From contig CM038908.1 in NCBI GenBank assembly GCA_021904315.1, forward strand, positions 13,536,501-13,600,500: DNA of 64,000 nt, written 5' to 3'. This stretch comes from Sphagnum magellanicum (Eukaryota > Streptophyta > Sphagnopsida > Sphagnales > Sphagnaceae). The position numbers and the translations under genes are program-made. How positions within the stretch are numbered: the first letter of the stretch is position 1; every line of letters begins with the position of its first letter. A model generated the notes under the pieces. The model saw only the letters and a list, made by a program, of their open reading frames with translations, made no database searches and was not told the DNA's origin. This document shows positions 33,906 through 39,120 of this stretch, in pieces.

Positions 33906-35213
33906 TTGATGCACATGGTGGTTGTAGATGGAGATTCATATACACATCAATCAATGATCATTAATAAGGGAGCATATGATTTATTACGTTTTTATTGGGT
34001 CAAAAGAATGAAAAACCACAATGTCTATCGCTACATATACCATGTAGAAATGGAAGGGTTAAAAGTGGGATTCAATCACATGAGGCAAAAATATGGACTA
34101 CACTTAAAATTTCATTATGAATATGAAGTAGTTTGTGAAATTATCATTGATTCCTTTACTAGTTGTGTGGGTTCACATGCCAATCTTGCCATAACTACAT
34201 TTTGGGAGGCCATTGTTTGTCCTAAGGACACCCGTTATAAATGGCATGCCTGAGATTGTATGTTTGGGACATGTAAGGATTGTGATGTGGACAATTTGGC
34301 ACTTTATCCAAATGAGGAAGAAGGTACCTTGTTCGCTATAGTTTGTTGGAAATGTTTTTGCATGGAGAAGGTTGTCATTAAGAAAGGTAAGGAAAAAATA
34401 AAAATAAAACTCATGCATATATTGGAAACTAATTCCATGGAGTTTATTACATTTTGAAGCCTAATTACTTGTAATATTTTGTACATCACAATTTTATTAC
34501 AAGGTGGCATGATCAATAATTCAAAAATTGCTTTCAAAACTATTTGGATCCATGATGACAATATGGGTTTGAAAATTGACTTTGTTAAAAACTATAGTTA
34601 ATTTGAGATCCAAAACTTTAAATTCTCGAAAGCCCCCCCCCCCCTTAATTATTTTCAAAGCTTGTTGAATTATTTTGACCGATTCCCTCATTTCTCTAAT
34701 TCGTACCAAATAACGAGCTAATGAATCACCTCCTATTTGTAGTCTATGCATTGGCATAACTATCAATGCACAATACTTGTGCATATCACTTGGATGCGGA
34801 ATCCAAACCCTAACCCAAATGATTAAAATTCAAACATTGTTACAAGCTACCGCTTTTACATCTCTAATGATAAAACCCCTTGACATCTATTTTATACAAC
34901 ATTGTTAACACTTACAAATTGGGAGGACACAATGAAGGGTGAGTTCAGGCCCAAACAACATTAGATATGGTTTAGTGGAACTATGCGTTTCAAATTTTAG
35001 TTCAAGAACAAGACACCTTTTTATTTTGTGAGTCATTACCTTCACCTCATGGGTGGATGTAGTTGTATGTGTAGTTTGTTTTGCTCAAGCCATGCAAAAG
35101 GTTTTCATGATGGGGTTGGTGCAATCTTGAAGAGGTTCAGTAAAAGTGAGTTCAACGGGATGTAGAAAGACTTCAACTTCAAAATGTAAAACAAGTGATC
35201 AATTTGCTTCATA
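33906..35213 (+). pseudogene. Uncharacterised plant transposon-associated protein, 5' portion of a fossil
   Basis: An open frame at 33906-34253 and its downstream frames (34260-34457, then decayed text to 35213) resemble a large protein I recall from repeat-rich bryophyte, fern and gymnosperm genomes. No function is known to me. Recognisable features are a cysteine cluster (FGTCKDCDVDN), NEEEGTLFAIV, a KKGKEK stretch and [12 protein letters not shown] and HGFHDGVGAILKRF-like text. The tract is in the order expected of that family, which is why I treat the separate frames as one relic. It is split by a plastid fragment at 34632-34740 and by the CACTA element that follows. It carries several breaks and cannot be active. 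The family identification rests on memory. Confidence 0.55.
34632..34740 (-). other. ndhH: Nuclear insertion of plastid DNA (ndhH fragment)
   Basis: Minus-strand translation reads [19 protein letters not shown] followed by [12 protein letters not shown]. This is the conserved segment of plastid NADH dehydrogenase-like subunit H (usual text [23 protein letters not shown]). The DNA words are also those of the plastid gene ('gattcattagctcgttattt'). The fragment is only about 110 bp and ends in a 12-base C run (34633-34644) where ndhH has a run of Gs. It sits in the middle of an unrelated reading frame on the other strand. A mitochondrial stopover of plastid DNA cannot be excluded. Confidence 0.8.
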
Positions 35214-36077
35214 CACTAGAAGAAATTTGAGGATATGCAACCATCCTATTTGTGACTACATGCAACTATGTATTGTTTGTGATTACTTTTGCAACTACTT
35301 ATCAACTTAACCAAATTTGGGGAGGGATTGTGACTATATTCCGATTAATGTGTGACTATTATCTTTTTCATCCTCCTATATGGATGTTTTAAGGATTATA
35401 TTCATCCATGAATATGCCCCGAACATGGCCTGTTAATTACATTTGTAACCAAAATTTAATCACAAATAATTTGAAAATGTAGTTGTAAAGATGTACAATG
35501 TGTATTATGGGCATAATAAACATACATATTTGGGATTATACAATTAAAAAGTCTATTTAGATTATAATAAATATTTATTATGAATATTATCAACATATTT
35601 GTAGGCTTTAATGTAAAGTTTTTGTGAAACGTACGTTACAGGTATATTAAAGGTGTAAAAAAGTGAGTTAAGTTTATATCTACTATTTTTTCTTATCAAT
35701 AATTATGATGCAATTAATTAATATTGAATAATTTTCTAGTCAATAATAACTAACTATTAATATATTATTATTAGTAATTAATAGTTAAAAACTAAAAAAT
35801 AAAAAATAAATATTATTGAAATTATTAATTATTAAAATTAACTAAGTTTTCATTTAATATTAATATTTTATTAACTATTGAATAAGTAATATTTAATACT
35901 CAATCATTCATATTAATCAATTAATATTGATTATTGATGGATTTTTACTATAAGTTATTTATTTAATTAAGTAAATATTAATTAATATTTGATGCCATTG
36001 CTACATATTATTAATAATTATTAATATGTAGATAGGAAGTTAGTGAATTAGTTAGTTAATTAATGAGGTACTTATGG

Positions 36078-36216
36078 AGTTGACACAATTGAAAGGGAAA
36101 CCAAATTGTATGGAATAAATAATCTACTCGCAAATTAGTTACAAAATATTTGCAAATATGTTGTGACTAGATTTTTTATCTCATATAGTTTGGCTTCCCT
36201 TTTAATTGTGTCAACT
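36078..36216. repeat. Hairpin: 34-bp inverted repeat with 71-base loop
   Basis: The left arm (36078-36111, 'agttgacacaatt' onward) and right arm (36183-36216, read in reverse) agree over almost their full length, with a handful of mismatches. It lies inside the CACTA element. It may be a miniature inverted-repeat element or part of the host element's own structure. Small-RNA potential is unproven. Confidence 0.75.
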
Positions 36217-36336
36217 ATATAATTAAATGCACTATAAACATTAAAATACACAAGATTTGCCAAATGGAATGAACTAATTAAAGAAGTTCAACCCTAGCTT
36301 GGGTAAATCCAAAATAAAGTAATTAAAAAAAGGTCT

Positions 36337-36425
36337 TAAGACTTACCTACCTACCTACTTAAGCCTACTTACTTACTTACTTACATGTACTTACTTAGTT
36401 ACCTATCTTAGGTTTCTTTACCTAC
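36337..36425. repeat. ACCT/ACTT simple-repeat tract
   Basis: Impure 'acctacctacctactt' and 'acttacttacttac' text inside the CACTA element. The opposite-strand pattern 'aggtaggtaggtagg' recurs near 37120-37160. Confidence 0.8.
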
Positions 36426-37689
36426 CCACATATTTTTATTTTAAATGTTTCAAAAAATATAAATGTTGCCATGTGGCACAAAGCTATTTGCCCACGTTTA
36501 TGAATAATTTTTTAAAAAAAAGGTTGAAATTAAAATTTTGGTAATAAATTTAATATTTTATTTAGATAATTTAATATGATTGGTCATTAAAAATTGATCA
36601 TTAGTTGTATGATAATTGCATGTGCTATATGGTCAACAAATGGAAAATACAATCAATTTAAATATGTATTTCATCCATTGTTTGTGAAATGACATCGTCA
36701 TGACATCAACATTTATAACTAATGTCCATTAGAAATAAATTATCATTTTGAAACTGTTGTATGCAATTGTTAGACCCCATATATAGTTGCATAAAACAAG
36801 TTGCACATGACCAGAAGTTACATATGACAATATGTATGTGGATAATATATATGGTATGAATTTATATTTTATACATTTATATTATTCTACAAGGGTTACC
36901 CATGATGACATGTGTTCATTGGTGAAGGTTAATTATATGGTGACATGTGTGGCATTTAAAACATTATTCAATATTTTTCATTATTAATAAATTAATAATA
37001 TCTTGGCCATCCAATAAAACATGAATAACATTTTGACACATGTCCATTTATGAAAGCCAATTATGTGATAACACATGGCAATTTTAAAAAGCCATTGATT
37101 ATTTACTTTTAATTAATTAGGTAGGTAGGTAGGCCATAGGTAGGGAAGTAAGTAGGTCATAAGTAGGTTGTAGGTGTTTAACCTTTAGGGTTGAACCTCT
37201 TTTATTGGCCCATCCCAAATGGCATTTGGTACTTGGTTTGTGAACAAAGCAAATGCATTTATATAGTGTGCACATTTGGAATTTAGGGTAAAAAATATGG
37301 GAAAAAAAATTCAATTGTAAGTGTAACCTACCTACAAATAGTACATGCTACCATATTAACCTAGTTTACCTACTAGTTAAATTAATTATATTATAAATAA
37401 TAAAACTTAATAGGTAATAATAATATAATATAATGATAATATTACTAATTGACTAATAATTAATGATTGATAATATTATATTATTATCTAATTTAAATTA
37501 ATAGCTAACTTAGGTTAGTAACTAGCATAGGTTAACAATATAGTTAAGATTAAAATTACATTTATTGAAAAAGAATGATATTATTATTAACAACTAGTGA
37601 TGATAATAATAATAGTAATAATAAGTATAGTTATAATATTTTTTAATAATAATTTATGATTAGCTATAATGATCAATTATATAATAATA

Positions 37690-38085
37690 TATATATTTTA
37701 GCTAACTAATTTTGATTAAATTAACCATGGCTAAACTAATTAAAAATGACTAAATTAATTTTGATTCAACTAACCATAGTTAAACTAATCATGATTAAAT
37801 GATCCATGGTTAGATTAACTAAAAGGTTAAATTTATTAGTTAACTTAGCCATGTTTAATTTCGTCATGTTAGTTTACCCATTGTTAGTTAAATTTAACCT
37901 CCTAACTAGTTTAATTCTTTGGTGAATTTTAACCATAGTTAGTTAGCCAATGTTTGTTTAGCCAAAATTAGTTTACTCATGGTTAGTTTAACCAAGTTAA
38001 TTTACACATGGTTAGTTTACCCAAAGTTAATTTAATCATGGTTAGTTTAACCTTGATTAATGTGAATTTAACTTAAATCTAACCA
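37690..38085. repeat. Degenerate 25-30 bp tandem repeat 'catggttagtttaaccaaa'
   Basis: About 400 bp of units such as 'catggttagtttaaccaa' with 'gttaattta', in both orientations (the left half reads 'ttaaccatggctaaac', the right half 'catggttagtttaac'). The tract is therefore partly palindromic, centred near 37850. It lies near the right end of the CACTA element. Confidence 0.75.
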
Positions 38086-38352
38086 ATGTTTTGCCAAGTG
38101 GGTAGCATCAATTAGCATCTATTTAACCTTAATATTAGAGGAATAAGACTATTATACATAGCTTAGGTAGATATATTGAATATATTAATGCAGGTATGTA
38201 TTAATTTAGGCCATGATTTTTGTGACATGTGTCTATTTTGTATATTATTAGTTACATGTTAGTTACACACACAATCAATGTAGTTGCAAATGTCATTTGT
38301 GACTAGACATTGTCGCAAATTGAAGTCGAAAATATGTAGATTTTTTCTAGTG

Positions 38353-39120
38353 AGACTTGTATGAATACATAATCATAAACATCTTATTCAAGGGAGAAAA
38401 GACTAGTTTTGCACACCTTTTGGGATGTAAAACCAACTAATGTAAACAATGTCATTGAGTACACAACTAATTTGATCAAAGGGACAAGGGATGTGCATTC
38501 CATGCAATCCATTGAGTCCATGGACATGAATAAGCTATTGAAAAAAAAACTTGGCTTCTTTATGTTGTTTTTGTGTTGATTTTAATTTCTTAGCATGTGA
38601 AAATTTGTTGTAGACTGAACATTAGGAGGTTGAGGTACTAATACTTAATATTGTGGGGTATGTACGTAATGCTTGGAAGTGACCTTTTGAGAAGACAAGT
38701 GGGATGAATACAAAGGTGATGGTGTTAACCTTGTTGCCTACATTTCAGTAGGAGACAATTATGTTGTGAATGCAAAGGAAGGAAATGAAAAAAGGTGGAT
38801 TTTTACATTGTATTATATATGCATACAAACTAGCTTCATGGTTTCCAACCTTTCACTTGCCCATGGGGGCAACAATTTTGGGCAAGTGACATAATAAGCT
38901 ATGAAATATTACCAAAGTTGGGGTTGGTTGGGCTTTTCTTATGTTTTATTGATGAGGTCCCATATTGTTTATGTTCATGCAAGCCACATTAAGGCCATCA
39001 AATTCCCAATGGTGCCAATTGATCACAAGGTTTAAGTGCTTGGTGCTCATGTAAAAGATGGCATAAGGCATGTTATTGCATCCATTGAGTTGTAATGGAC
39101 ATTGATTTCTACATGTTGTA
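38353..39120 (+). pseudogene. Uncharacterised plant transposon-associated protein, 3' portion
   Basis: Directly after the CACTA end the homology seen at 33906-35213 resumes. A frame at about 38400-38575 contains FWDVKPTNVN and LIKGTRDVHSMQSIES. It is followed by text like YVRNAWK, and then YVHASHIKAIKFPMVPID at about 38960-39020. The order and spacing continue those of the 5' part, so this was a single gene before insertion. It is broken in several places. The same family caveat applies: the match is from memory and no function is claimed. Confidence 0.5.

Follow-up and report, generated by a model that had tools for sequence, protein, structure and literature searches.

The stretch of Sphagnum magellanicum DNA analyzed here, referred to as the window, is 64,000 nucleotides long (contig CM038908.1, positions 13,536,501 to 13,600,500 of the forward strand). 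Between positions 33930 and 39033 of the window, on the + strand, lie the remains of a single broken gene whose parts still follow one order. We put at about 0.84 the probability that they are what is left of a large, now dead DNA transposon of the cut-and-paste kind (class II), which would measure at least about 10 kb when complete and carry two genes facing each other. Three lines of evidence point to such a relic of a two-gene DDD-type transposon: the family is dispersed through the genome, its protein has a candidate RNase-H-like core, and its gene is linked to a companion gene in convergent orientation. The companion is new in this analysis, and no two-gene element of such design was found described in the titles and abstract openings of the literature searched.

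The broken gene and its two insertions

Four pieces of the window, at 33951-34358, 34917-35138, 38379-38604, and 38652-39029, are collinear with relatives in the same genome (tblastn E values of 6e-37, 6e-20, 2e-13, and 3e-25, respectively). An earlier note on this DNA had placed the peptides CKDCDVDN, NEEEGTLFAIV, FWDVKPTNVN, and GTRDVHSMQSI in the order of one protein, and all four lie on the + strand in the order claimed. The first part of exon 2 (33930-34454, +) includes a C-x2-C stretch, GTCKDC; as a query in the protein search of the genome, it gave 152 matches at E <= 0.001, with the best 150 of 403 candidates scored. It is followed by IDFVKNYS (34575-34598, +), the remnant of the first catalytic-aspartate motif, in which D is found in 24 of 26 copies of the family; by the second half of the putative RNase-H-like core (34755-35153, +); and by the C-terminal part of the protein, from FWDVKPTNVN to IKAIKFPM (38379-39033, +), located by tblastn matches within the genome. 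The first and third candidate catalytic aspartates are retained, the latter in FHDG at 35109-35111, while the second position is lost (IWFSG versus IWSDG, aligned by eye). The copy is decayed, with stop codons within each of its three main pieces. Just upstream, a noncoding stretch at 33462-33890 (+) is common to relatives L010 and L014, at mostly 60 to 80% identity per block, a similarity not sustained elsewhere in a 19-locus alignment. Because exon 1 in another copy, E5, ends in CAG|GT, this stretch is probably the intron between exons 1 and 2.

What interrupts the gene? The earlier note had proposed two later insertions, and relatives of the window copy indeed skip both. The larger, of 3.1 kb (35214-38352), has 13-bp inverted ends with one mismatch (CACTAGAAGAAAT at 35214 and ATTTTTTCTAGTG at 38352). 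It is flanked by the triplets ATA (35211-35213) and AGA (38353-38355), both picked out by eye; because the empty site in L005, CTTCATACTTGT, has a single ATA, they are read as a 3-bp target-site duplication with one change, from ATA to AGA. When the flanks were joined by script, leaving three bases of the insert on the left side, all eight loci tested (seven distinct, since L004 and L014 overlap) crossed the join in one alignment, at 66 to 74% identity over 300 to 320 columns. With its CACTA inverted ends and 3-bp duplication, the insert is assigned to the CACTA superfamily, from its ends and the triplet only, and no coding content was noticed in its 3.1 kb. The likeness to CACTA (En/Spm) elements belongs to this intruder alone and not to the element of the broken gene. 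The shorter insertion, of about 0.12 kb (approximately 34616-34737), is missing from relatives: it is skipped by the same eight of eight loci (seven distinct) in BLAST and by three of three relatives in a multiple alignment.

A dispersed family

The genome to which the window belongs (439 Mb in 31 contigs, with the window on contig C2) was searched with three protein queries, for which the best 150 of 403, 497, and 645 candidates were scored, and with one DNA query. The protein searches gave 441 matches, which merge into 271 loci among these best-scored candidates. The listed copies are mostly about 25 to 65% identical to the window query and are spread over many contigs. Most carry internal stops, some open pieces are present, and no intact copy was seen among the loci read. 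A single-copy host gene, the outcome that the earlier note had set against its own proposal, is therefore excluded by at least 271 merged loci from the three protein searches; the relic does come from a large, dispersed protein family, one for which Pfam holds no model. The family may also occur in ferns and gymnosperms.

Two pairs of loci share much more than the gene. L039 and L040 (on contigs C4 and C6) have about 10 kb in common at 97 to 98% identity, and L041 and L042 (both on C18) about 10 kb at 99.96%. In each pair the common sequence includes a transposase that was already broken, and these are therefore dead copies carried along by later duplication. A Helitron-like open reading frame (ORF), recognized by eye, lies downstream of one transposase copy at L050 (C26:22000-27500). 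Helitrons were rejected as carriers of the family, as no other turned up when the further ORF lists were inspected by eye. A 1.6-kb stretch in copy E1 (L051:2316-3930, on C9) was likewise rejected as part of the element, being an unrelated high-copy repeat (best 40 of 473 candidates scored). Farther along the same locus, downstream of the transposase gene, L051:6674-7489 is a tandem array of about eight 101-base units, and matching repeats are present in E2, E3, and E4.

A companion gene in convergent orientation

Within one subfamily, the sequence common to the copies extends for kilobases past the transposase. In E5 and E6 this shared downstream region contains a second gene, on the opposite strand. 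Its recognizable parts are an N-terminal domain (in E5 only), a stretch that appears coiled-coil-like by eye, a Cys/His-rich domain (HCPFCGLRFQPLWVGLIASCKHVYHN.C), and an acidic/basic tail, and the RING-like region precedes the tail in both copies. Searches of the genome with the zinc region and with an open-frame relative gave 140 matches (best 150 of 215 candidates scored) and 149 matches (best 150 of 309), respectively; together they represent at least 163 loci.

How are these companions placed relative to the transposase? Sixty-four have one of the 271 transposase loci no more than 25 kb away, and 58 of the 64 are downstream and antisense, that is, convergent, with 2 downstream in sense orientation and 4 upstream; these counts rest on the best-150 candidate lists and on decayed copies. 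The median distance is 7.5 kb (quartiles, 6.7 to 10.5 kb). In 2,000 shuffles, with contig ends approximated by the largest match coordinate, the convergent layout arose 1.36 times on average and 6 times at most, versus the 58 observed. The 58 pairs occupy 19 contigs and form 55 clusters at 100 kb (binomial p of 2e-28 against one in four layouts). Thirteen loci closely related to the window copy were checked: a convergent companion lies within 19 kb of 8 of them, a companion in a different layout accompanies 2, and for the remaining 3 no companion is listed. The earlier note had seen in the relic a candidate element whose partners it could not name, and the convergent companion now provides one.

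The zinc domain was compared with RING domains, defined by C-x2-C, C-x-H-x2-H-x2-C, and C-x4-C spacing together with a RING fold. When seven companion pieces were compared with RING- and PHD-like families of Pfam, the best matches were RING_2 (E value of 0.0011) and HC5HC2H (0.0007), and the best sequence match of a companion profile in the PDB was a zinc-finger protein 183-like 1 RING protein (E value of 0.034). A structural model (predicted local distance difference test [pLDDT] of 68) suggests a beta-beta-alpha core. Its first Foldseek row is the RING domain of TRIM32, and LIM and PHD domains are also among the matches listed. "RING-like" is thus a fair name for the domain, short of proof.

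Three genes that resemble the companion have long open frames, of 817, 440, and 385 amino acids, and are found at C15:16298587, C6:20650444, and C6:20864449 (L062:1-1641 at 16.30 Mb of C15 and L065 and L066 at 20.65 and 20.86 Mb of C6). Over 68 amino acids, the C15 gene is matched at 90% and 87% identity by the two on C6, and the three form a group of their own; no listed transposase lies within 600 kb of them. They could be host genes, either descended from the companion or standing at its origin. Have they been domesticated? Nonsynonymous and synonymous divergence (dN/dS) came to 0.118/0.080, 0.134/0.091, and 0.039/0.007 in the three comparisons, and in the closest pair 19 of 20 changes are nonsynonymous (p of 0.04 under neutrality). 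Over the parts compared, dN is thus no lower than dS, and purifying selection to keep the genes is not borne out.

The putative transposase protein

The plan of the gene was read from copy E5 (L056 plus L058, on C12). Its start codon was placed at 1012 by comparison with E6, and both copies are broken soon after. Exon 1 ends in the splice-like boundary ATGGAAACCCAG|GT at 1784 and is followed by an intron-like gap, and exon 2 matches E1 over 2611-4525. The E6 protein begins MASHTLKEKRGRGGRPQI, which to the eye is AT-hook-like. A stretch of exon 1, GVHPRNISIAMQR, resembles by eye a helix-turn-helix (HTH) and has no significant match in Pfam.

Sequence searches with the core place it in no known family. 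Among 33 core members there was no Pfam match better than an E value of 0.15, and of six longer ORFs, four had none and two had chance-level matches only. The core had no match better than 0.024 in PHROGs and none below an E value of 2 among PDB sequences, where a single chance-level match stood at 2.3. Scans of viruses and prokaryotes with family patterns, which reach close relatives only, found no relative.

L045 was modeled with AlphaFold2 (181 amino acids; 33 rows), as the only open frame found to span all three aspartate motifs. The model (mean pLDDT of 56; predicted template modeling score [pTM] of 0.45) has the predicted order beta-beta-beta-alpha-beta-alpha-beta-alpha, as in RNase H, with the motif positions falling at strand 1, right after strand 4, and ahead of the last helix. 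In a Foldseek search, 49 of the 50 matches listed (536 at E <= 10) were Argonaute/PIWI, RNase H, RNase T, or reverse transcriptase chains, the last counted whichever domain aligned. The best had an E value of 2.8e-3, a probability of 0.98, and a template modeling score of 0.32. The third aspartate column has D in 32 of 37 copies. Taken with the weak structure matches, the predicted fold order would be consistent with an RNase-H-like nuclease built around a D-D-D triad.

Ends and size of the element

Where does the element begin and end? The left end of E5 is estimated at L056:853, where similarity to E6 on the right and similarity to a flank paralogue on C14 on the left both stop. This point lies 159 bases before the inferred start codon, at an AT-rich junction, and the flank to its left is part of a high-copy repeat that is uninterrupted in the C14 paralogue. 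One half of the E5 target is seen at C14:197200-198700; looking for its counterpart gave nothing usable (best 40 of 2,348 candidates scored), nor did searches for terminal inverted repeats in E1, E5, and E6. The right part of E5 is broken by a high-copy repeat at about 11672, and the similarity of E6 ends at 11958. Because similarity between E5 and E6 extends, in pieces, over 853 to 11061 of E5, the element is about 10 kb at least. About 5 to 6 kb past the E6 similarity, a gene that resembles, by eye, an ammonium transporter of the host was noted (L059, C4:24755000-24762999).

Relation to known elements and other explanations

MuDR of maize, like the family described here, has two convergent genes, one of them for the transposase. 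A RING-like partner is, to our knowledge, no feature of MuDR, and the core of the present family differs in lacking a Pfam match to any transposase family, MULE and MuDR included, in a search whose sensitivity is limited by decay. The nearest named superfamily is Sola, compared by published description only. As described in the available parts of PMC10741241, Sola elements have a DDD transposase, 4-bp target-site duplications, and terminal inverted repeats of 11 to 1,124 bp; they mostly measure 2 to 9 kb, with some above 15 kb, a range that takes in an element of at least 10 kb. They are present in the moss Physcomitrella and apparently uncommon in flowering plants (PMC10741241; table in PMC9033089). 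Sola1 of Physcomitrella has a DDD transposase, as our family putatively does, and is like it in large size and moss host; it differs in that a convergent RING-like companion is not mentioned for Sola in the parts of these two papers that are available. Some Sola2 elements of amoebozoa are large transposons with a second protein, a likeness to our family, but that protein is Fanzor1 and not RING-like, as far as the portion of PMC3627910 that also gives a putative 888-amino-acid Sola2 transposase describes them.

Is the family then an ordinary member of Sola, with the companion a passenger gene gained by the lineage? We regard this as an even bet. The putative transposase type, size range, and host match the partial descriptions (PMC10741241, PMC9033089), the Fanzor1 elements offer a precedent for a second protein (PMC3627910, in part), and the left junction of E5 is AT-rich; however, the likeness is one of published description, no duplication or inverted repeat was found in E5 or E6, and a passenger gained once would not be expected to recur with the regularity of this companion, at 58 linked loci. 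A new DDD superfamily of land-plant transposons, apart from all named ones, is a possibility that we consider less likely than not. It would account for the regular RING-like companion and for the failure to find a Pfam, PDB, viral, or prokaryotic relative, but these missing matches are weak evidence, because Pfam is without many transposases and the pattern scans have a short reach. The earlier note had singled out the relic as a candidate for an undescribed element type. A relic of a large family without a Pfam model, split by two later insertions, is supported; the claim of novelty is weakened, since the putative D-D-D core, size, and moss host fit the available description of Sola (PMC10741241) and the element may therefore be a variant of a known superfamily.

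Two further explanations do without a two-gene transposon. The copies could be an expanded set of host genes plus pseudogenes, multiplied by segmental duplication or carried along by other elements, as the roughly 10-kb stretches common at 97 to 99.96% with the same broken gene would suggest; this is unlikely, as the listed copies are mostly far more diverged, at about 25 to 65% identity to the window query on many contigs, and as flank similarity ends at the left end of E5. Alternatively, the companion link could be an artefact, since RING genes are common in plants and could lie nearby by chance, and since 99 of the 163 companion loci have no transposase nearby among those listed. We consider this very improbable, as a single layout out of four accounts for 58 of the 64 loci, at quartiles of 6.7 to 10.5 kb, and as E5 and E6 agree in the order of the RING-like region and the tail.

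Several results weigh against a two-gene DDD transposon. The second aspartate column has D in 17 of 34 copies and N in 11, and the modeled L045 itself has H there; N may possibly come from decay of D. The core model is weak by its mean pLDDT and pTM, and no structure matched it in Foldseek at an E value of 0.001 or lower. The RING matches of the companion member shown fall under the Pfam cutoffs, and the structure match of the zinc domain is insignificant (best E value of 0.32). Besides the 99 companion loci without a listed transposase within 25 kb, another 6 are placed in layouts other than the convergent one, and no convergent companion is listed for 213 of the 271 transposase loci. No remnant of the companion was found in the window by translated searches with pieces of E5 or by DNA and translated searches with pieces of two relatives; the window downstream of the relic is occupied by other repeats. 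In E5 and E6, the right ends of which are missing or replaced, neither a right end nor a terminal inverted repeat nor a target duplication could be found.

A possible two-gene mechanism

If the two-gene transposon is the correct reading, its genes would divide the work as follows. Gene 1 (+) would encode a two-exon D-D-D transposase, in which the AT-hook-like and HTH-like stretches of exon 1 may bind the element ends, while exon 2 would supply the C-x2-C stretch, the RNase-H-like nuclease core that cuts DNA, and a C-terminal domain. Gene 2 (-) would begin near the other end of the element and face gene 1. Its product, with an N-terminal domain, a coiled-coil-like stretch, a RING-like zinc domain, and an acidic/basic tail, might act as a ubiquitin- or SUMO-ligase-like protein or as a bridging partner, either aiding transposition or blunting silencing by the host.

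A bolder proposal, which we find doubtful, is that the family represents a superfamily or deep branch of DNA transposons of land plants, not described before, whose D-D-D transposase regularly comes with a convergent RING-type, coiled-coil helper resembling a ubiquitin or SUMO ligase; the three open-frame genes may then be host derivatives of the companion of such a lineage. A dedicated partner protein is known to us from few transposons of the cut-and-paste kind. If the pairing is real, a RING-like partner linked at 58 loci would mean that the element carries a possible regulator of host protein modification. The analysis would also provide a means of recognizing related "uncharacterized proteins" in plant annotations and a family name and profile for part of the unclassified repeats of Sphagnum (7.8% in the available part of PMC9946827).

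Other features of the window

Downstream of the relic lie two high-copy repeats of about 0.6 to 0.8 kb each, one (40371-40950 plus 41539-41729) apparently having the other (40962-41538) nested inside it, with 1,638 first-look candidates in the genome. The stretch 40371-41729 was rejected as part of the element, both repeats being unrelated to it. About 20 kb upstream of the broken gene and on the same strand, 14034-14261 (+) is a remnant of exon 1 of the same family, including its EEKPIKYLMET end. It was identified by tblastn with exon 1 queries from L021 (E value of 6e-8), L025 (8e-6), L044 (2e-5), and E5 (0.005), and it is either a separate copy or the window gene's own exon 1, displaced by nested insertions.

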